Below are positions 319-47,979 of a stretch of DNA of 47,979 nt, piece after piece. The stretch is from positions 1 to 47,979 of the IMG/VR virus record IMGVR_UViG_3300045120_000134; one strand, written 5' to 3'. The stretch's first letter is position 1; each line of letters begins with the position of its first letter. Below the pieces are notes generated by a model that made no database searches, was not told the DNA's origin, and worked only from the letters and a program-made list of their open reading frames with translations. A program made the position numbers and the translations under genes. Source of the stretch: a virus.

Positions 319-1824
319 ATGTCAAAAATCATTTTCACCCAAGCCACGCGAAACAAGGCTCGATCGATCGTGCGGGCGGCGCCCGGCTTTGATGCGTGGC
401 GTAACGCGGCGGGCGATGCTGTCGGGCAGTTGAATACGAAAGTAAGCATCATCGATGCGGCGAAAGCGCTTAACGTTTGGCCGGCGATCGAAGCGTTGAT
501 TGCTGATCAGATAGCGGGCGGTGACCATGCGACGGACGATGGCGATGACGCGGCGGCGATCGAGGACGCAAATGAAGTGGATGACGTGGCAGCATTGATT
601 GAAGCGGGTGAGACCGATCCAGTCGAGGCTGCAATCGAAAGCGTGCTGGCGCCCGTTCGTCCTGTCCTTGGTTCGCTTGTCCTACAGGCGATCGAGAACG
701 CCGTCAGACCTATCGCCGTCGCGGCGAACAAGCCTGCGGTCGTCATTCAAGCGGCGCCCGTGGCGCCGGCTGGCGCGGCGCCCTACGCCGCGATTGTTCG
801 CCAGTCGACTATGTCGCAGACGTTTGGTCTTGCGGCGCGTAGTGCGCAAGGAAAACTCCCGGTCAACATTTGGGACGCGGTCGACGCGCCCACACCTGAA
901 ACGGCATATGTCGTCAATCCTGATACGTTCGCTGAAGTCGCGACGGCGCTGGAGCACGGCGAAGCGGTTTGGTTGGCGGGCGCCGCTGGTACGGGCAAGG
1001 GCACGCTTGCGAGAGAGTACGCGGCAAGAACCAATCGCCCGTTCGTGCGGATTGGTTTCACAAGGTCGACTGAGATTGTCGACCTTGTCGGGCAGAGCGA
1101 GCCTATCCCGGGCGAAACCCACGGCGCCCAAATGATTTGGCGTGATCGTGTTTTTACGCAATCCATTCGACGGCCGGGCACGGTAATCTTGCTTGACGAG
1201 CTTATGATTGCGCCGCCCGGCACGGCAGCGTTTTTTCAAACGGTTCTCGACGATAAGCGCCTTACCCTTCCGACGGGCGAGGTCGTGCCTTTCGCGCAAG
1301 GCGTTGTCGTTATCGTGGCCGACAATTCCGCGGGCTATGGTGACGAGACGGGCGTCTATGCCGGTGTGCAAGTCGCGAATGCCGCCTTGGTTGACCGCTG
1401 CGCCCGGCTGGTGATCGTGGATTACCTCCCGCCGGCCCTCGAGGCGCTCGCGCTTAACAAGCATACCCAAGCCCCGCTTGCGGCCTGTGAACGGCTCGCG
1501 GCATTCGCCAAGGTCGTCCGAACCGCGGCGAAAGCGGCGGGCGGCGAAGCCCGGCCGTTCTCCGTTCGGCGCCTTGTCGCTTTCGTCAACGCCACCTATC
1601 GCGACAAGATCGAGGTCGGCGCCGCGTGGCGTGTCACGGTCTTATCGAGGCTTCCTGAGGCTGATCGCGAATTGCTGGTGCAAGCGATCGCGGCGCATTT
1701 CGACGGCAAAACTTTTGACCGTGAATTGCGTGGCGTGGCCGATGCGAGCGAGCCTGCAGCAGTAGCGGCGCCTTTGTCGCAAGCGTCCGAACAAGTCGGT
1801 GCCCGGCAAGCTTTTGCGTCTTAA
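319..1824 (+). CDS. MoxR/CobS-like AAA+ ATPase
   Basis: A 501-residue protein of the MoxR/CobS/dynein-related AAA+ class, which remodels protein partners using ATP. The ATPase core occupies about residues 205-400. Walker A is GAAGTGKGT at 221-229 with Lys227, Walker B is VILLDEL with Asp293-Glu294, and a sensor-1-like VVIVADNSAG follows. The first 200 residues are Ala-rich with an acidic stretch and match nothing I recognise. It is 29 bases upstream of a CobT-like VWA protein; ATPase plus VWA pairing is the hallmark of MoxR and cobalt-chelatase systems. No CobN-type chelatase is present, so cobalamin synthesis is unlikely and the client is unknown. CobS-like genes are known in other tailed phages. 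Alanine is mostly GCG and leucine often CTT, unlike the GCC/CTC style of the virion genes. Confidence 0.85.
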   Translation: MSKIIFTQATRNKARSIVRAAPGFDAWRNAAGDAVGQLNTKVSIIDAAKALNVWPAIEALIADQIAGGDHATDDGDDAAAIEDANEVDDVAALIEAGETDPVEAAIESVLAPVRPVLGSLVLQAIENAVRPIAVAANKPAVVIQAAPVAPAGAAPYAAIVRQSTMSQTFGLAARSAQGKLPVNIWDAVDAPTPETAYVVNPDTFAEVATALEHGEAVWLAGAAGTGKGTLAREYAARTNRPFVRIGFTRSTEIVDLVGQSEPIPGETHGAQMIWRDRVFTQSIRRPGTVILLDELMIAPPGTAAFFQTVLDDKRLTLPTGEVVPFAQGVVVIVADNSAGYGDETGVYAGVQVANAALVDRCARLVIVDYLPPALEALALNKHTQAPLAACERLAAFAKVVRTAAKAAGGEARPFSVRRLVAFVNATYRDKIEVGAAWRVTVLSRLPEADRELLVQAIAAHFDGKTFDRELRGVADASEPAAVAAPLSQASEQVGARQAFAS

Positions 1825-1853
1825 CCTCAATCCCAAAACAAGCGAGAAAAACC

Positions 1854-3758
1854 ATGTTGAACAGAACCACGGTAAGCATCCCTGATGCGCTCACCGCCAT
1901 GGAAGGTAACCTTCGCGCCATCCTTGAATTAGCTGATGTCAAGGCGACCGTGCGGGCGACCGTCTCGGCTCATGCGACGACGGCGAGTGTCGCAATGACG
2001 CGAGTTCATTCGCGGGCGCCCTATGATGCGGTAGTTACGTTTCCCGTGATGGCGCATGACGCCCGGCTTACTCGTGCCGTGCTCGATCGCTGGACCGGGT
2101 ATTTCTTGCACGAGATTGCGCATGTGCTCTACACGGATAATTCCGTATGGCGGACGGCGGTCAGCGAGGGTCTCGGCAATCTTGTCAACGCCATGGAAGA
2201 CGTCCGCATAGAGCGAAAACTGATCCGTGCCGCGGTAGCGGGAAATGCTCGTGAGCGGCTCACTGAATTGCTTGCATGGGCGGTTGGCGAGACAAGCAAA
2301 GTCCCGCCGGGCGGCAAGCCTTACGATCCGAACGCCGTCCGTTGCATGCCCTGGACACTCGCCATGCTCGGCCGCGTTCGCGTATGCGGTTATGAGCTTC
2401 CTGCGGTAGTGCCTTACGACAGGGCGATCGATGCGGGCATGCGGGCGGTCATCGATGGCGCGCTTGGCAAGCTGGCCAAGGCGAGGACTACACAAGACGT
2501 GCTCGAAATTGCCCGTGACCTGAAACAGGCGACGCTGCCCGAGGACCAGGGCGACCAGGGCGACCAGGGCGACCAGGGCGATCAGGGCGACCAGGGCGAC
2601 CAGGGCGACCAGGGCGAGCAGGGCGAACCCGGCGACCAGGGCGAGCAGGGCGAACCCGGCGAGCAGGGCGAACCCGGCGAGCAGGGCGAACCCGGCGAGC
2701 AGGGCGAACCCGGCGAGCAGGGCGAACCCGGCGAGCAGGGCGAACCCGGCGAGCAGGGCGAACCCGGCGAGCAGGGCGACGACAAGTCCGGCACTGGTCA
2801 CGGTGGCGGGCACGGTGGCGGTAACGGGCAAGCCCAGATCGACCCGTCGACTATGGAACCGGTTCCGAACCTCAACCCGATCGCGGCGGGCAACCGTCCG
2901 CGATCCGTGACCGAAGCAGCGGCGCAAGTCCGTGAAGTTGCGTTGATTGAAATCTTGCGGCGGGCGAAGGTTGGTGCGAAGCGAAAGCTTCCGCCAAGCA
3001 ACGGGCACTACGCACGACCGGACGAGCAAGACCGGCTCAAAGCAGCGGCGCGCGGATGCGCAAGACTTCGAAACCAATTAGCGCGCGTCCTCAAGGCGCC
3101 GTCCGATGATGACGTTCAGCGGCGGCGCAGTGCCGGGCGCGTCGACGCCCGGGCGATGGGGCGGCTTGCCGCGGGCGACTACGCGAGTCCGTTCCTTCGG
3201 CGCCGTCAGATCGACGGGCATGAGGTCGAGGTATCTATCCTCCTCGACGGATCGTCCTCAATGCAACACGGCGATCGGTTATGGCGGTCGACGGTTCTCG
3301 CAACGGCGATCGTCCAGGCCGCGGAACAGGTTGGCGTCAAGGTCGAGGTGCTCAAATTCGAGCGTGATGCGCTCTATTCGGTTAAGGGTGCCGGCGAGCG
3401 ATTGGCGCTGCCGGCGGCGATGGCTCGCATGGCGACGGCGGCGTTTAGCAGCGACGGTTATACGCCGCTGTCCGAAAGCCTCGCCATTGCCGCGGAGCGG
3501 CTCGCCGTGCGGGCGCCGACGAAGCGAAAGGTGATTTTCCCCATCACGGACGGCGGCTGTGATCTTGGCCCGCTTGCCGTGCATGCCGTGGCGAAACAGT
3601 GCGAAGCCCGCGGTATTGAGGTTGTCGGGGTATCGATCGATAGTGACGTGCATGGATGTTTCGACCATGAAATCAGGGTGAACCAAGGCGACGACATGAG
3701 CGCAATTGGGTTGGGGCTTCTCGCCCGGGCGCTCGAAGCCCGCGGGCGGGCGGCGTAA
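1854..3758 (+). CDS. CobT-like VWA protein with HExxH and collagen-like spacer
   Basis: A 634-residue partner of the upstream ATPase. The N-terminal part has HEIAH at 86-90 followed by EDVRIE at 115-120, the metallopeptidase-like signature of CobT/VWA proteins. Residues 231-308 are 26 uninterrupted Gly-X-Y triplets (DQG, EQG, EPG), followed by a Gly/His-rich patch. The C-terminal half is a von Willebrand A domain with an intact MIDAS: DGSSSM at 465-470, Thr537 and Asp566. In cellular CobT the corresponding linker is a plain acidic region, so a collagen-like spacer is unusual. The likely role is the metal-dependent adaptor that brings a client to the ATPase. Whether the HExxH is catalytic cannot be told from sequence. 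Confidence 0.82.
2544..2777 (+). repeat. 9/18-base tandem repeats encoding Gly-X-Y
   Basis: Eight 9-base units (GACCAGGGC, one with GAT) at 2544-2615 are followed by mixed GAGCAGGGC, GAACCCGGC and one GACCAGGGC unit, settling into an 18-base unit repeated up to 2777. Units are nearly identical at DNA level, so copy number is expected to vary by slippage in multiples of three codons without breaking the frame. Confidence 0.92.
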
Positions 3759-3814
3759 TGGCGGCGCTCCTGCTGGTGTTGGTTATCCTGATTGTGTGGG
3801 CTGCCGAAGCATAG
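3758..3814 (+). CDS. 18-residue membrane micropeptide
   Basis: ATG overlaps the stop of the VWA gene (TAATG), which favours translational coupling. The product [18 protein letters not shown] is almost entirely one hydrophobic helix and ends before the operon terminator at 3843. It could tether or regulate the ATPase/VWA pair at the membrane. No family is recognised, and a frame this short could occur by chance; the coupled start and purely hydrophobic content are the only support. Confidence 0.35.
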   Translation: MAALLLVLVILIVWAAEA

Positions 3815-3842
3815 ATGGCCCGCCATTGCGTTTCGAGGCTTG

Positions 3843-3874
3843 GCCCGCGGGTGGACTATCCCCGCGGGCTTTTT
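3843..3874 (+). terminator. Intrinsic terminator after the ATPase/VWA operon
   Basis: GCCCGCGGG (3843-3851) and CCCGCGGGC (3861-3869) form a perfect 9-bp stem around a 9-base loop, followed by TTTTT (3870-3874). It closes the first operon. It lies inside an open frame that could start at 3815, and so argues that the next gene begins further downstream. Confidence 0.82.
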
Positions 3875-3925
3875 CGCGTCTACGGGGCTTCCAGGGGCCG
3901 GCGGGAAGGTGCTATTCGTAGGGGC

Positions 3926-4912: not shown

Positions 4913-6997
4913 ATGGGCGTCGAGAAGATCTTCTCTTTTGGGAGCTGGGACACAGATCATCCCTCCGACCGTCATCCCGGTGAGCGCATCGACGCCCAGT
5001 TCGATGCGCATGCCAACGCCATCCGCGCTCTCGAGCGTCGTATCGACGCGCTCGTCCGCGCCGACGGCAAGCTGCATGACAATGTCCTCCCCTTCACCTC
5101 GCCTGTCCTCCTCTCCGGCGGCAACGCCGCCACCCTCTCCGCCGCTGCCCCTGAGGACTGGGCGGAAGTCTCGATGGAATGGGCTGAGCACATGCCCGAC
5201 ACCATTCCCCCGAACATCCTTGCGACTAACGCCATCACGGGAGACCATTGGTCTTCTCGCTGGTGGGCGAACCAAGCCGCCCGGCTCGCTGCTCGCGGCA
5301 CCGTCACCCTCATCAAGCTCAAGCACTTCCCCTTTGACGGCGTCGCCACGACTTTCCCGCTCCTCGACGAGACCTCCGCCCCGATCGTGCCGGCGACGAA
5401 TGTTAGCCAGCTAACCATCTCCGTTGAAGGCGTCATTCAGGAGCCCGGCGTCGACTTTACCTTGGCCCTGGCTGGCGCCTCCGTGACGTTCACGACGCCC
5501 CCGCCTGCCGATGCCCGGAACTTCGCCACGTATGCCCTACAAGGGCAAACCTCGGCCGCGACGATCGCCACCGCCGCCGTGTCTTTCCCGACGCGAACCT
5601 TGGCAGCTGCCGCTCTCCTGCCGCTGGAGACGCAGGCGATCGCGACTGCCGGCTATCTCAATCCCGGCGACGGCGGCGACGCGCTTTACTATCGGGCTGG
5701 TGGGATTACGCCTGGCGGCTTTCAGAGCGCCGATGGCGCGTGGTGGGCGTTGGAGCAAGGTAACGTCAATGTCCGGCTGTTCGGGGCTGTCGGTAATGGT
5801 GCCAGCGACGATGCGGCGGCGTTCCAGGTGGCGGTGAACAGCGTTGCTTCGGGCGCCGGCGTCGAGGTCAACGTGCCGGTTGGCAGGTACCTGCTCAACA
5901 GCGACGTGACCGCCAACGGGCGTATCGTCGCTTGGGACATCGCGCCGGGGACGGTGTTCACCGGGACCGGCAAGCTCGTGCCGCAGTCGGTCGGGTTCTA
6001 TGCGGCGTTCGACAACGTCGCGCGCATGGAGATTTATCAGCAGCGCGGGTCGCCGTCGGCGCCTTGGAACAATCTCAACCCGATGGTGGCGCTGGTTCAG
6101 CACACCAGCAGCGCCGGGATCGCGGCAGGCATCCCACAGGCGCCGTTGAGCGTGACCAATTACAAGTATGACACTGCCGCCAGCGGTCGCGCGACCGCTG
6201 TGTTCTCCGAGGCGATCGATCCGACCGGCGGCGCCTCGACGTTTGTCGAGGGGCTGCGGGCGCACGGTATCCGTACGTCGGCAGCAGCGGCGGGCGGCAG
6301 CGCTTATGGTGTGATCGCTCTCGCCCAGGCGGCGGATAACGCGCCGGCTTATGTGATCGGTACCGAGGTGGAGGTGTCGTGGTCTGGTGCAAGCGCGGTC
6401 GACGCGCCAGCGACGCCGGTGTTCTCGACGGCCCGGTTCGTGGCCAATTTCATGGCGACGTGCCGGACGGGGGTCAAGGCCGATGCTTTGTTCCTAGGCA
6501 ACCCGTTCAACACCGTGCCGGCCCGCGCCGGCGTGCTGCTCCCGCCGGGGTCGGTCGACCACACGGCGTTCTCCAGCAAGGCAGCAACCCAGTACGGCTT
6601 GGATCTGGGACAGGGCACGCAAGCCTTGGCGTCGATCCGGCTGCCTAATGACGGGCAGATTGCCTCGGTCAACGGCGCCGGCAACGGTAATCTCAATCTG
6701 CTTTACGCCGACGCAACCAATCAGATGGTGATTGGCACCAATGCCCTTCGCGTGACGACCCCGGTCAGCCTCAAGGTTCATTCTGCCACGGCGATCCCGG
6801 CTGGCGGGGCAGCCGGGGCGGGAATCATGGTTTCAAGCGCAGTCAGTTTCGGGGTGTTCTTCGGTTCGGGCGTGCCGACCCTCGCCGCGGCCAAGGGCAG
6901 CCTCTATTTGCGTTCCGACGGGTCGTCGAATGTCACCCGGATGTACGTCAACACGGATGGCGGCGCGACTTGGACGGCGGTCAACACCGTGGCTTGA
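4913..6997 (+). CDS. Tailspike with pectate-lyase-like beta-helix
   Basis: A 694-residue virion protein. Residues 1-200 look like a head-binding and neck region. Around 288-305 the sequence LFGAVGNGASDDAAAFQ matches the entry motif of Pectate_lyase_3/GH28-type right-handed beta-helices, used by tailspikes to bind and cut surface polysaccharide. The C-terminus (GSLYLRSDGSSNVTRMYVN then GGATWTAV) is a tail often seen at the end of alphaproteobacterial phage spikes. Catalytic residues cannot be assigned. The start is set by GAGG at 4901. As first gene of the late operon, its expression may be uncoupled from the genes behind it. Confidence 0.8.
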   Translation: MGVEKIFSFGSWDTDHPSDRHPGERIDAQFDAHANAIRALERRIDALVRADGKLHDNVLPFTSPVLLSGGNAATLSAAAPEDWAEVSMEWAEHMPDTIPPNILATNAITGDHWSSRWWANQAARLAARGTVTLIKLKHFPFDGVATTFPLLDETSAPIVPATNVSQLTISVEGVIQEPGVDFTLALAGASVTFTTPPPADARNFATYALQGQTSAATIATAAVSFPTRTLAAAALLPLETQAIATAGYLNPGDGGDALYYRAGGITPGGFQSADGAWWALEQGNVNVRLFGAVGNGASDDAAAFQVAVNSVASGAGVEVNVPVGRYLLNSDVTANGRIVAWDIAPGTVFTGTGKLVPQSVGFYAAFDNVARMEIYQQRGSPSAPWNNLNPMVALVQHTSSAGIAAGIPQAPLSVTNYKYDTAASGRATAVFSEAIDPTGGASTFVEGLRAHGIRTSAAAAGGSAYGVIALAQAADNAPAYVIGTEVEVSWSGASAVDAPATPVFSTARFVANFMATCRTGVKADALFLGNPFNTVPARAGVLLPPGSVDHTAFSSKAATQYGLDLGQGTQALASIRLPNDGQIASVNGAGNGNLNLLYADATNQMVIGTNALRVTTPVSLKVHSATAIPAGGAAGAGIMVSSAVSFGVFFGSGVPTLAAAKGSLYLRSDGSSNVTRMYVNTDGGATWTAVNTVA

Positions 6998-9203: not shown

Positions 9204-12200
9204 ATGGCTCTCACGCCCGCCGAGGCGGCCTTCGTCGCCACTCACGAAGTCCCCGTCGTCACGGCGATGAAGCCGTATCTCAACGACTCGCGTGAAGCCT
9301 ACAGCGCGGCTATTCCGCGACCGACTGTTCCTCCCACCATCTCGGGCACCGGCGCCATCGGTGCAGTTCACATCGCGACGCCGGGCACCTGGACCAACTC
9401 GCCCGCGATTACCTACCAGTGGCGCCGCGACGGCGTTCCCATCGCGGGAGCGACCGCTGCGACTTACACGACCACCACCGCCGACAGCGGCGCCCTCCTG
9501 ACTTGCGCCGTCACCGCCACCAATGCCGCAGGGTCCACCACCGTCGTTGCTGGCCCGATCCGTATTGCGACGTTGGACAATGTTGTCCCGGTGTCGGTCA
9601 CTTTTTCGCCTGTCGACAATCAGATCGGTGTCGCTGTCGGCGTCAATCTCGTCGTGACCTTCTCCGAGACGGTGACGCTCGGCACCGGGATCGTCACGCT
9701 CAAGAAGGTCAGCGATAATTCGACCATCACATCGTGGAACGTCGCGACGCAGGCGGGCACCGGCGCAGGCCAGGTCAACGTCGTTGGTGGGAACCAGCTC
9801 ACCCTGCGCCCGTCGACGCCTCTCCCTGACACGACGGATTTCTACGTCATCTGGGACGCCAACGTCGTCAAGGACGCGGCGAACAACCCCGTCGCGGCGA
9901 TGGCCTCGCCGAGCCTGTGGAACTTCACGACCGTAGTCGTCAGCGCGCCGGACGTGACGCCGCCGACGGCAACGATTTTTAACCCGTCGGACAATTCTGT
10001 CAGCGTGTCTGTGACCACTGACCTGGTGGCCACCATGAGTGAGACCGTCGTGCTCGGCTCGGCGGGGACCATTACGCTCAAGAAGACCAGCGATAACTCG
10101 GTCGTTCAAACCTGGAATGTCGCTACCGACGCCGGGGCGACGGCCGGCAAGGTCAACGTGGTCGGCGGTAATCTCTTGACCATGCGGTTGACGGCGGCGT
10201 TGGCCAACAGCATCGAATACTACGTGACCTGGACCGCCGGGGTCGTCCAGGATACCAGCGCCAATCCGATCGCGGCGCAGGCGGTGACGACCTTATGGAG
10301 CTTCACCACTGCCGTTGCCGGTGACGTCACTCCGCCAACGGTGGTCAGCTTCAGCCCGCTCGACAATGCTACTGGCGTGGCGCTATCAGCCAATCTCGTC
10401 GCGACGATGAGCGAGACGGTGACGCTCGGCACTTCTGGCATCATCACGCTCAAGAAGACCTCCGACAATTCCACTGTCGACTCCTGGAACGTCGCCACCG
10501 CTGGAGGCTCCACCGCCGGCAAGGTCGAGATCGTCGGCGGCACCGCCCTCACCATGCACTTGACCACCGCCCTGGCCAATTCCCTCGGCGTCTACGTCAT
10601 CTGGGATGCTGGCGTCGTCAAAGACACGGCGGGCAACCCGATCGCGGCCAATGCCGTGACGACGCTGTGGAACTTCACGACGGTAGCCGCTGGTGGGACG
10701 TTCCTGCTCGACCTCTACCCCACCGCCAGCATGGCCTACTCCTTCCGCAAGCTGCGCAATGCCTATGCCGGCAGCGCGGTGCGGATACGGAGAAGCAGCG
10801 ATAACCTCGAACTGAATATTGGTTTCGATGGGAGCGGGAATTTCGACAGCGCGGCGGCTGCGACGCATATTGGCGGTGGCAGCGGCTTCATCGTCACGTG
10901 GTTTGATCAGTCGGGGAATGGGATCGATGTAACTCAGGCGACGGTGGCGAACCAGCCGACGTATAGCGCGACTGGAATGAATGCGCTGCCGACGATGGTC
11001 TACGATGGGAATGATGTGCTTGTAAGAGCTAGCACGTCGTTCTCCATTACAACTACGACTATAATGATAGTTTTGTTGGATAACACCTCAAGTAGCGCGA
11101 CTTTTAGCTGGGGAGGGTCCGGTGTATTTCAAGATTATGCAGCTCTTAGCGGTACAATATACTTTGATTTTGGTAATCAGACAGCCGGCTCTGGTCGGAT
11201 TAGTATCGCTGCTCCATCAGGGTGGACTGTCGGTAGTCACTTATTAGAGTTTGGTCGGGAGGTTGGTAACGATCAGTTCATAACGGTAGATGGTGCAGAG
11301 CTGATACGCGGTACAGGCAGGACCGTTACACCGGGAGCAGGTCCCAATACATGGTCCGTCGGAGAAAATTTGGGTGCAGTGACATACCATCACGGCCCGA
11401 TCTCTGAGCTAGTCATTTGGGCCGCCGACCTCGCCGCCAACCGCACCGCCGCACGCGGGAACATCCAGACCTATTGGCTGCCGCCAGCCTTCACCGGCCT
11501 GCTCGACACGTATCCCACTGCGAGCATGGCGTACAGCTTCAGGAAGCTTAGGAACGCCTACGCAGGGTCAGCGGTACGCATTAGGCGCAGCTCAGACAAT
11601 CTCGAACTGAATGTTGGCTTCCTGGCGAATGGAGATTTCGATAGCGCAGCAGCAGCAACACACATTGGAGGTGGGACGGGATTTATCGTCACGTGGTTCG
11701 ATCAGAGCGGGAACGCGATTGATGTAACTCAGGCGACCGTAGCGAACCAGCCGGCCTATGTCGCGGCGGGGATGAACTCGCTGCCGACCATGGCAACAGA
11801 TAGCACGGATTTCTTGGCTGTGGCGGGAGTGGCAAACACATCTCTCCCGGCAGCCACAACTACAGCTATGACGGTTATGACGCAGAACAGCGGTACTACT
11901 GCTGGCTATCTTGGTTGGGAGGCAGCATCTTCAGTAAACCGTTTTAGCATCTTCAAGTTTAATGCGAACATTACTTTTGATTTTGGGAATAATTCGACTG
12001 GAGACAGCATAGCTGCTGCTCCCGCTGATTGGCTGACCCGTGGTGGTCGACTTCTAGAGGTTGGGCGGGACACAGCTAATTCACAGTACATAACACTTGA
12101 TGGCGTAGAGAAGAATAGAGCAGCGGGAAAGGTTGGTCTGCCTGCCGCTGGCTCAGCAATTCTTTCCGTCCCCGGCTGGCCTGCCGTTGGCAATCTTGTT

Positions 12201-13814
12201 GGTACCATATCGGAGATGGTTGTTTGGGCGGCTGATCTGGGAGCCAGTCGAGCATCGGCTCGCTGGGCCGTGCAGAGCTACTGGCTGGCGGCACCTCCAC
12301 CCTCTCCACTTCTCGATGTCCTCAGTACCCCCGCCACTCGCGCTTACTCGACCCGCAAGCTCAGCGCTGCCTATGCCGGGTCGGCGATCCGCATCCGCCG
12401 TTCCAGCGATAACGCAGAGCAGGACATCGGCTTTGTCTCGGGTCATCTCGACGCGGCTGCGATCACAGCCTTCGTCGGGGCGAACTCGGCTTATGTCGTC
12501 AAGATGTACGACCAGAGCGGCGGAGCCTTTGATACCTCGCAGGCAACAGTCGCGAGCCAGGCGAGGATTGTGAATGCTGGGGTTCTGGAGACGAAGAACG
12601 GTAGGTACTTGCCCTATTTTGATGGGACGGACGACTTCTTAGCAGCGGCTTCGGCGGTATGGTCAGTACAGTCGGCCGGGGTAGTTGCCGCTGCCGATGT
12701 TGCCGGGACTACGTTCCCCCACGCGATCGGGGTGTTTGGTGGCTCCGTTTCGATGATATTTGTCGGGCAGAATGCCGCTACTGGCTATTATTTCTCTGGG
12801 AACGTCGGTGGGCCAAACGTCAATAACACTGGTGCGGCGACGTTGCCTTTCAATGGCACGCTCCACGAGATCAGGGCGACGAGTGCGACGGGTATCGCCG
12901 GGACAACTGAGACAGTTCAGCTTGGCAAAGACCGAGGAGTTCCGGCAGCCGTATGGCTTGGCTGGATTGGTGAGGCTGTTGCCTTCGCTACGCAGCTCAG
13001 CGCCTCGGACTACCAAGCTCTCTATGAGAACCAGAAAACCTATTGGAACACTGAGCCCACCGCACGGCTCCTTGACCAGCTTGGGGTGAATGCGACACGA
13101 GCCTACTCGACGAGAAAGCTCAGGGCTGCCTACACCGGGAGCGCGATCCGCATTCGGCGGAGCAGCGACAATGCCGAGCTGGACATCGGGTTCAGCGGTG
13201 AAGACCTTAACACAGCGGCTGTTGCTACGTTCGTCGGTGCGAACAGTGCGTATGTGGTGAAGTGGTACGACCAGAGTGGCAGTGCGGATAATTGCGTGCA
13301 GGCGACGGTGGCCAGTCAGCCACGGATCGTGAATGCTGGTACGCTTGACGTAAGAAATACCAAGGCTGCTCCGCTATTTGATGCCGTGGATGACTATCTG
13401 CAGAACTCTACGGGACCGACTGTGCAAGAAGCCGGGGTGTTAGTGGCAACCTCTCAGGCGGGACCAAACTTCTCAACGGTTTTGGGAGCGTACAGTTCGG
13501 TAACTCAGGTGATGCTGGATACGGCTGGTGCTGTCCCTACGTGGGATAACAATTTCACTGCTATGAAGACGGTGTTCGCCGTAAATAATGTTAGTACATT
13601 CAACGCAGTATTTGGCGGTGTCCTGCAACAGATTGATCAAGCCGCTACCAGCCCTGTGGTGTATACGGCGACACAAATTGGTGGGGATCGGCTTACGGCT
13701 GGGCGTTATTGGCCGGGCTGGATTGGGGAGATCGTACTGTTCTCGGCGGCGCTCACCTCTGGCAACCGCACCGCCATGTACACCAACCAGAAAACCTATT
13801 GGGGAACACCATGA
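9204..13814 (+). CDS. Giant fibre with Ig-like and arabinofuranosidase-like repeats
   Basis: A 1536-residue tail or head fibre. Order: N-terminal module (1-35), one Ig-like domain (about 50-115), three Big_5/SbsA-like Ig domains (about 130-495; each with FSP.DN..GV, ETV.LG...TLKK..DNS and a V.D...NP(I/V)AA closing), then four copies of a roughly 250-270-residue domain starting near 503, 766, 1036 and 1290. Each copy carries Y(S/T)..RKL..AY.GSA(V/I)RIRRSSDN.E..IGF and W/M(F/Y)DQSG, the signature of the alpha-L-arabinofuranosidase B catalytic fold (ArabFuran-catal family), here probably a sugar-binding lectin. Variable interiors between fixed borders suggest receptor-specificity cassettes. The stop overlaps the next ATG. 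Confidence 0.8.
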   Translation: MALTPAEAAFVATHEVPVVTAMKPYLNDSREAYSAAIPRPTVPPTISGTGAIGAVHIATPGTWTNSPAITYQWRRDGVPIAGATAATYTTTTADSGALLTCAVTATNAAGSTTVVAGPIRIATLDNVVPVSVTFSPVDNQIGVAVGVNLVVTFSETVTLGTGIVTLKKVSDNSTITSWNVATQAGTGAGQVNVVGGNQLTLRPSTPLPDTTDFYVIWDANVVKDAANNPVAAMASPSLWNFTTVVVSAPDVTPPTATIFNPSDNSVSVSVTTDLVATMSETVVLGSAGTITLKKTSDNSVVQTWNVATDAGATAGKVNVVGGNLLTMRLTAALANSIEYYVTWTAGVVQDTSANPIAAQAVTTLWSFTTAVAGDVTPPTVVSFSPLDNATGVALSANLVATMSETVTLGTSGIITLKKTSDNSTVDSWNVATAGGSTAGKVEIVGGTALTMHLTTALANSLGVYVIWDAGVVKDTAGNPIAANAVTTLWNFTTVAAGGTFLLDLYPTASMAYSFRKLRNAYAGSAVRIRRSSDNLELNIGFDGSGNFDSAAAATHIGGGSGFIVTWFDQSGNGIDVTQATVANQPTYSATGMNALPTMVYDGNDVLVRASTSFSITTTTIMIVLLDNTSSSATFSWGGSGVFQDYAALSGTIYFDFGNQTAGSGRISIAAPSGWTVGSHLLEFGREVGNDQFITVDGAELIRGTGRTVTPGAGPNTWSVGENLGAVTYHHGPISELVIWAADLAANRTAARGNIQTYWLPPAFTGLLDTYPTASMAYSFRKLRNAYAGSAVRIRRSSDNLELNVGFLANGDFDSAAAATHIGGGTGFIVTWFDQSGNAIDVTQATVANQPAYVAAGMNSLPTMATDSTDFLAVAGVANTSLPAATTTAMTVMTQNSGTTAGYLGWEAASSVNRFSIFKFNANITFDFGNNSTGDSIAAAPADWLTRGGRLLEVGRDTANSQYITLDGVEKNRAAGKVGLPAAGSAILSVPGWPAVGNLVGTISEMVVWAADLGASRASARWAVQSYWLAAPPPSPLLDVLSTPATRAYSTRKLSAAYAGSAIRIRRSSDNAEQDIGFVSGHLDAAAITAFVGANSAYVVKMYDQSGGAFDTSQATVASQARIVNAGVLETKNGRYLPYFDGTDDFLAAASAVWSVQSAGVVAAADVAGTTFPHAIGVFGGSVSMIFVGQNAATGYYFSGNVGGPNVNNTGAATLPFNGTLHEIRATSATGIAGTTETVQLGKDRGVPAAVWLGWIGEAVAFATQLSASDYQALYENQKTYWNTEPTARLLDQLGVNATRAYSTRKLRAAYTGSAIRIRRSSDNAELDIGFSGEDLNTAAVATFVGANSAYVVKWYDQSGSADNCVQATVASQPRIVNAGTLDVRNTKAAPLFDAVDDYLQNSTGPTVQEAGVLVATSQAGPNFSTVLGAYSSVTQVMLDTAGAVPTWDNNFTAMKTVFAVNNVSTFNAVFGGVLQQIDQAATSPVVYTATQIGGDRLTAGRYWPGWIGEIVLFSAALTSGNRTAMYTNQKTYWGTP
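10710..13811 (+). repeat. Four tandem lectin-like domain repeats
   Basis: Four coding repeats of about 750-810 bases. Copies 1 and 2 share the border protein sequence almost exactly, and copies 3 and 4 form a second pair (TRAYSTRKL..AY.GSAIRIRRSS). At DNA level the copies are strongly diverged at synonymous positions, so they are protein repeats without being long DNA repeats. Confidence 0.85.
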
Positions 13815-47846: not shown

Positions 47847-47979
47847 TTCAATTCAAAGTAGTTCCGATCGCAGCCTTTATATTAGGGGTTTTTTGAACCG
47901 AGGGGCTCGACGCCGCGCGCCCGGCGCGCCGCGCGCGCCGCGCGCCGCGTGCCGCGTGCCGCGCGCGCCGCGTGCCGCG
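47847..47979. repeat. Right copy of terminal direct repeat
   Basis: Second copy of the 1-133 sequence. It ends in the middle of the GCCGCG-type tract, so the contig was probably cut where the assembler could not cross the repeat. The single T/C difference lies in a GCCGCG(C/T)GCC unit, as expected for slippage or real unit variation. Confidence 0.9.

Follow-up and report, generated by a model that had tools for sequence, protein, structure and literature searches.

Do the paired CobS-like and CobT-like genes of tailed phages serve the synthesis of vitamin B12, or do they encode a machine that acts on proteins? The question is raised by a 47,979-nucleotide stretch of viral DNA, the whole of IMG/VR virus record IMGVR_UViG_3300045120_000134 (referred to as the window), in which positions 319-3814 carry the genes for a CobS-like MoxR AAA+ ATPase and a CobT-like VWA protein, followed by an 18-codon hydrophobic open reading frame (ORF). 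The features of this operon and of its relatives argue, with moderate confidence, for a phage MoxR AAA+/VWA remodeller which carries a metallopeptidase-like domain and whose client belongs to replication or recombination, rather than for a B12 gene. Gene content and coordinates are exactly those of an initial annotation of this stretch, and the MoxR/VWA remodelling machine of the CobS/CobT type proposed there for a tailed phage is supported by profile matches, synteny and the metal ion-dependent adhesion site (MIDAS) of the VWA domain. The operon is composed of the following features.

319-1824, + strand: MoxR-class, CobS-like AAA+ ATPase of 501 amino acids, with AAA_5, phrog_249 and CobS profile matches
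1854-3758, + strand: CobT-like VWA co-chaperone of 634 amino acids, with a putative N-terminal metallopeptidase-like domain, a disordered linker, a finger and a VWA domain
1854-2537, + strand: N-terminal domain (residues 1-228) with HExxH at 86-90, NxxED at 112-116 and E120, on predicted zincin-like active-site and glutamate helices
2109-2123, + strand: HEIAH codons (residues 86-90), with putative zinc ligands H86 and H90 and putative general base E87
2187-2213, + strand: NAMEDVRIE codons (residues 112-120), with E115 as candidate third zinc ligand
2538-2837, + strand: Gly-X-Y/acidic linker (residues 229-328), including an 18-bp minisatellite at 2550-2779
3135-3176, + strand: finger motif (residues 428-441) preceding the VWA core, with conserved G428, D431 and G441
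3228-3758, + strand: VWA domain (residues 459 to end) with MIDAS D465-x-S467-x-S469, T537 and D566
3758-3814, + strand: 18-codon hydrophobic micro-ORF, whose start shares one base with the VWA stop codon (TAATG)

A conserved HExxH signature in the N-terminal domain

The residues H86, E87, H90, N112, E115, D116 and E120 do not vary across 62 diverged N-terminal domains and appear to form a gluzincin-like HExxH...E signature; the retrieval pattern demanded NxxED..E, so that those columns were partly selected, while HExxH was not part of it. The HExxH motif itself is present in 76 of 79 distinct phage proteins, with HExxxH in two and neither form in one. In the window protein it occurs as HExxH-x24-E, and the corresponding spacing amounts to 21-34 residues in all but one of the relatives, usually to 24-33. 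An interval of this size between the second His and the Glu is typical of gluzincins. The HEIAH at residues 86-90 had been recorded correctly in the initial annotation, but was treated there as one detail, although no other feature of the family is as strongly conserved.

The AlphaFold2 model of the domain (predicted local distance difference test, pLDDT, 94.1) consists of strands followed by the HExxH helix (residues 74-93) and the NxxED helix (residues 108-126), which would correspond to a zincin layout with HExxH on one helix and the candidate third ligand Glu on a second one. Significant structural matches among the BFVD viral models are mostly other viral CobT-like proteins, followed by a weak tail which includes several SprT-like proteases, an IrrE and annotated peptidases. 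The weak Pfam matches among the 62 members point in a similar direction, namely SprT-like in five, M48 in two and DUF2201_N ("putative metallopeptidase") in one. Profile searches of the PDB with the N-terminal domain alone returned chance matches only. As judged from motif and model, the domain is likely to be zincin metallopeptidase-like. DUF2201_N was rejected as the parent family of the HExxH domain, because there is no profile homology between them (hhalign Prob 1.9).

The same domain is recognizable in cellular CobT. Comparison of the phage and CobT N-terminal domains by hhalign yields a Prob of 95% and an E value of 1.7e-8, with NAMEDVRIE aligned to CobT EAAEQARCE; the two are detectably homologous, even though HExxH occurs in none of 59 alphaproteobacterial CobT sequences. 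The window protein gave no match to the CobT N-terminal domain PF06213 in the Pfam search; such a match is found in 26 of the 62 N-domain relatives.

The AAA+ ring, the VWA domain and the linker

The ATPase consists of a divergent N-terminal part of about 200 amino acids and an AAA_5 core at about 205-460 (Pfam E 9e-15), and also matches phrog_249 (E 1.4e-38). The best single-ring match of its family profile in the PDB is CobS (9ujv, E 1.4e-71), followed by CbbQ and NorQ, while Midasin reaches a total score above that of CobS through matching several AAA modules. The AAA+ assignment of the initial annotation is borne out by intact Walker A, Walker B, sensor 1 and Arg finger elements, since Walker A (G221, G224, G226 and K227), Walker B (D293 and E294), sensor 1 (N336) and R360 are invariant in nine relatives.

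For the VWA protein, the best PDB match of the family profile is CobT (9uka_G, E 5e-59), followed by NorD, and Pfam recognizes CobT_C in 28 and CobT in 18 of 38 full-length relatives. The MIDAS, likewise described as intact beforehand, is kept across these 38 sequences (D465, S467 and S469 in all of them, D566 in 37), with position 537 occupied by T in 24 and by N in 14. The finger preceding the VWA core is conserved to a similar extent (G428 in 36, D431 in 35 and G441 in 36 of the 38), and the best PDB match obtained by Foldseek for VWA domain plus finger is NorD (9qh6, E 3e-11). By analogy with the role of the finger in NorQD (PMC13036017), residues 428-441 are proposed to enter the pore of the AAA+ ring.

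The linker between the two domains contains the 26 Gly-X-Y triplets noted initially, which indeed represent its longest run and are encoded by an 18-bp tandem repeat of 12.8 copies (93%). The window protein matches Pfam Collagen here (E 4e-12), but the same is true of only two of the 38 relatives; the family median is three Gly-X-Y triplets, and the closest complete relative (L004, 84% identical overall) has at most seven in register. Features that are usually kept are length (median 114 residues) and acidity (median D+E 27%, K+R 7%), and the linker is disordered in the predicted model (pLDDT 32-46). The notion of a collagen rod setting the distance between ATPase and client is contradicted by these values, and a conserved rod was rejected, the relatives having mostly acidic low-complexity linkers. 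The Gly-X-Y stretch represents the minisatellite form of a linker that is disordered and, in most members, acidic, and a flexible tether agrees with the data better than a rod of the collagen type. NorD cannot function without its long linker, which the motor stretches (PMC13036017).

Many contigs of relatives end in or just after the VWA N-terminal domain or the linker (L007, L009, L010, L011, L027, L040, L043, L055 and L059, and likewise L062-L064, L066, L068, L070, L071 and L074). Because many of these broken-off contigs are about 50 kb long, the linker repeat probably breaks the assembly of otherwise nearly complete genomes.

Synteny and gene context

Searches of viral and prokaryotic contigs identified 93 loci with the N-terminal domain. 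At 81 of these viral and prophage loci, no more than 200 bp separate the VWA gene from an AAA gene, which is upstream at 75 and downstream at six; at another six the AAA gene is situated further upstream, and the DNA retrieved for the remaining six contains none. The conserved synteny envisaged in the initial annotation thus holds for the ATPase/VWA pair, while its third partner, a coupled micro-ORF, follows only eight of 61 VWA genes. The pair is found in Microcystis phage Mae-Yong1326-1, Rhizobium phage RHEph10, Roseobacter phage CRP-810, Ochrobactrum phage OC, Klebsiella phage pJN2-26 and Stenotrophomonas phage BUCTxx99, and in Prochlorococcus phage P-RSM4 the VWA protein is annotated as "peptidase" beside CobS; the HExxH N-terminal domain is common to the Microcystis, Prochlorococcus, Rhizobium, Roseobacter, Ochrobactrum and Klebsiella phages. 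A tblastn search of annotated phages with the VWA protein gave no match; its gene neighbour yielded the homologous Microcystis, cyanophage and Rhizobium pairs.

The neighbours in the named phages comprise recombination endonuclease 46/47, sliding clamp, clamp loader, RegA, Pol III alpha and primase/helicase, and DNA primase families dominate among 100 neighbour ORFs of the metagenomic relatives. Prophage-like loci have RecT, YqaJ and DUF3150 beside the pair. In the window, a primase-like protein and a DNA polymerase are encoded upstream of the operon if the sequence is read across the terminal repeats. The gene context therefore points to replication or recombination rather than to defence or the envelope, favouring a client of that stage.

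Two of the prophage-like clusters, L105 (Sutterella) and L106 (Pseudomonas), contain a YqaJ exonuclease, DUF3150, the AAA gene and the HExxH-VWA protein, with DUF3150 directly before the VWA gene in both, and L106 additionally harbors RecT and a cytosine methylase. No literature was retrieved on DUF3150 in combination with phage.

The coupled micropeptide

The hydrophobic peptide of 18 residues, correctly described beforehand as coupled by TAATG, overlaps the VWA gene by one base. All nine nucleotide differences to L004 within the micro-ORF are synonymous (P = 1e-5), so it is translated, or was until recently. Counting hydrophobic ORFs of 15-60 codons with a start within 12 bases of the stop codon, coupled hydrophobic or transmembrane micro-ORFs follow eight of 61 clustered VWA genes versus one of 266 other long ORFs, after removal of one duplicate of the window clade (L005) from the control; with the duplicate kept, the control amounts to two of 267 (Fisher P 3e-5). 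They are most regular in the clade of the window in the VWA-region tree (the window, L004, L026, L031 and L035) and absent from most others. The micropeptide is thus real but clade-restricted, which places it outside the core machine; a role at the membrane may be considered.

Proposed mechanism and alternatives

In NorQD, as studied by cryo-electron microscopy (PMC13036017), the finger of the VWA domain inserts into the pore of the ring, the C-terminus is in contact with the ring, and every ATP step rotates the VWA domain against the tethered N-terminal domain; this arrangement offers a model for the phage pair. A CobS-like MoxR AAA+ ring would work with the CobT-like VWA co-chaperone, whose zinc-metallopeptidase-like N-terminal domain would be tethered by the disordered, mostly acidic linker to the finger-bearing VWA/MIDAS domain. 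If NorQ/NorD is taken as a guide, the finger would be located in the ring pore. The MIDAS and/or the N-terminal domain would grip the client, and ATP turnover would twist the VWA domain against the tethered N-terminal domain, which may cleave the remodelled client or at least grip it through zinc. The client would most likely be a replication- or recombination-stage protein rather than the corrin ring, and the micropeptide, where present, may serve as a membrane-inserting accessory in a subset of clades.

Several observations weigh against this proposal. The zincin assignment is drawn from motif, topology and weak matches, and the best Foldseek match of the N-terminal domain in the PDB (DUF885, E 0.16) is not significant. 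HExxH is lost in one relative, from a Stenotrophomonas phage, and changed to HExxxH in two, so the family may be able to do without catalysis. No report of zinc, protease or ATPase activity was found in the literature for any viral member. The downstream flank in the window encodes a tail-spike-like protein and an endolysin, i.e., tail and lysis genes, and gene context is only suggestive, since phage modules shuffle.

Some of these points would be accommodated if the HExxH domain were catalytically dead and acted as a metal-stabilised client binder in a pure remodeller like NorQD, which employs an N-terminal domain and an essential linker with no protease activity described (PMC13036017). The altered or lost motifs of the three relatives agree with such a view, but the two His and the general-base Glu show no exception among the 62 diverged sequences, which a purely structural site would not require; a dead domain is therefore regarded as possible but rather doubtful. 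The VWA protein of the Stenotrophomonas phage (L022, 3760-5745), which has REVST in place of HExxH and keeps the ED motif and the MIDAS, represents a natural test of the need for the peptidase site.

A chaperone-protease of virion assembly, which would remodel and process structural proteins, is how the MoxR/vWA-metallopeptidase pair of the group 2.2 jumbo phages has been interpreted (PMC7824862), and the MoxR-VWA pair of the archaeal Acidianus two-tailed virus reportedly acts in tail assembly (cited in PMC7824862, PMC7159879). For the pair described here this function appears unlikely, given its location within replication/recombination modules in several sequenced phages and the prevalence of primase families among the neighbours of the metagenomic relatives.

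The clear homology to CobS (9ujv) and CobT (9uka) would also allow the phage proteins to act as products of auxiliary metabolic genes, which join the CobN of the host, insert cobalt and raise the cobalamin supply during infection, as suggested for the cobST module of archaeal and bacterial viruses (PMC8651126) and repeated for Microcystis phage Mae-Yong1326-1 (PMC9503304). However, the ATPase scores 62.8 bits with the CobS equivalog TIGR01650 (cut-off 558.6 bits), and the VWA protein 18.8 bits with the CobT equivalog TIGR01651 (cut-off 759 bits; relatives at most 108 bits). Because both cut-offs are missed by far (several-fold or more), the pair is, by these curated sequence standards, not an orthologue of the B12 enzyme. 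CobN, whose presence nearby was named in the initial annotation as an argument against its reading, is encoded neither in the window nor in 52 related virus records, and the invariant HExxH is foreign to cellular CobT. Furthermore, relatives are encoded by phages with enterobacterial hosts such as Klebsiella, which make B12 by the anaerobic route without CobN. An involvement in cobalamin synthesis is thus considered quite improbable. In a tree of the VWA region with midpoint rooting, 11 cellular CobT sequences form one clade inside the viral diversity, although the direction of CobT evolution is unproven because of long branches and the missing root.

Phage early genes of unknown target are often directed at the host. 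Nevertheless, a counter-defence or host-takeover machine disabling a host protein is very unlikely even though MoxR-vWA pairs form the cores of bacterial conflict systems (PMC7159879), as PADLOC found no match and so gave no support to a defence-system reading.

Relation to known systems

A view on the described systems shows that the locus is a member of an already known architecture, here found in a 48-kb phage. The group 2.2 jumbo phages were reported to encode the same MoxR AAA+ protein beside a vWA protein with an N-terminal metallopeptidase domain, for which virion maturation was proposed (PMC7824862); that pair was described for jumbo phages only and assigned to virion assembly, and is likened to the present one by its description. 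The widespread viral cobST modules of haloarchaeal tailed viruses, T4-like cyanophages and Mae-Yong1326-1 (PMC8651126, PMC9503304) share the adjacent genes for a CobS-like AAA+ and a CobT-like VWA protein, the MIDAS and the low-complexity linker with the window pair. They have been called B12 helpers, with cobT "mistakenly annotated as a peptidase" (PMC8651126). Because HExxH is conserved, the sequences suggest that the peptidase label has a real basis, and this statement merits re-examination.

Among the cellular systems, CobN-CobS-CobT shares the CobS/CobT homology, the homologous N-terminal domain and the VWA domain, but differs in the CobT N-terminal domain without HExxH, in the equivalog scores, which are too low for the phage proteins, and in CobN, which is not in the phage records. 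NorQ/NorD and CbbQ/CbbO exhibit the same combination of a MoxR ring, a VWA-finger co-chaperone and a long linker, with NorD 9qh6 as the best fold match; the N-terminal domain of CbbO is described as having no relationship to that of NorD, NorQD acts in the insertion of iron into NO reductase, and an HExxH or zinc site is not mentioned in the NorQD papers examined. The bacterial putative metallopeptidase DUF2201 (PF13203) also carries an HExxH domain, N-terminal to what is presumably a VWA-like domain, without the profile homology discussed above.

What seems to be new is that the HExxH signature runs through the sampled viral "cobST" class, that cellular CobT has the same domain without HExxH, and that some clades possess a coupled membrane micropeptide. 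Taken to its full extent, this would mean that all viral "cobST" pairs, even the core pair of marine T4-like cyanophages, form an AAA+-driven zinc protease/remodeller of replication and recombination and not a B12 module, that cellular CobT of the aerobic B12 pathway is a domesticated, catalytically dead relative which lost HExxH, and that some clades add a coupled membrane-anchoring micropeptide; this joint proposal is tentative and, as a whole, would more probably fail than hold. The HExxH signature that true CobT lacks also joins two literatures which the papers examined treat separately, on viral cobST and on MoxR/vWA-metallopeptidase pairs, and offers a possible origin for the N-terminal domain of CobT. 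Viral cobS and cobT are counted as genes of vitamin B12 metabolism, and this annotation feeds ecological claims. With an HExxH lacking a counterpart in CobT, no CobN and a replication context, a single residue (E87) may serve to discriminate between a "B12 helper" and a "protein-cutting machine."

Genome and operon layout

The record (about 48 kb, 63% GC) carries a terminal direct repeat at 1-133 and 47847-47979 (132 of 133 positions identical), and because of this repeat the genome is probably complete at about 48 kb. IMG/VR lists the record as linear and without end repeats despite the 133-base direct repeat, and the genome ends lie in GC-rich tandem repeats. Its genes include those for terminase, portal and major head protein, together with those for an endolysin, a DNA polymerase and a primase-like protein. 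The operon is flanked by the following elements.

167-206, + strand: near-perfect hairpin (-32 kcal/mol) followed by a U-run, between terminal repeat and operon
232-260, + strand: promoter-like TTGACG-17 nt-TATCTG, inside the inverted repeat CTTGAC...GTCAAG (231-265)
3842-3875, + strand: intrinsic-terminator-like stable hairpin and U-run, 3' of the micro-ORF at the operon end

Transcription between one promoter and one terminator, as initially assumed, is plausible. The terminator side is backed by the hairpin and U-run at 3842-3875, and on the promoter side the TTGACG-17-TATCTG element is unique within the window and for the most part retained in L004, but was not scored as a sigma-70 promoter in a consensus scan of the window. 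The inverted repeat at 231-265, which overlaps this promoter-like site in front of the AAA gene, has no second copy in the window and is likewise largely kept in L004, is a possible operator, as judged from its sequence.

Outside the operon, positions 4913-6997 encode a likely tail spike or depolymerase of 694 amino acids, which matches a pectate-lyase-like beta-helix, and positions 9204-13814 a virion protein of 1536 amino acids that matches virion structural families and, weakly, a Hoc-like decoration protein.

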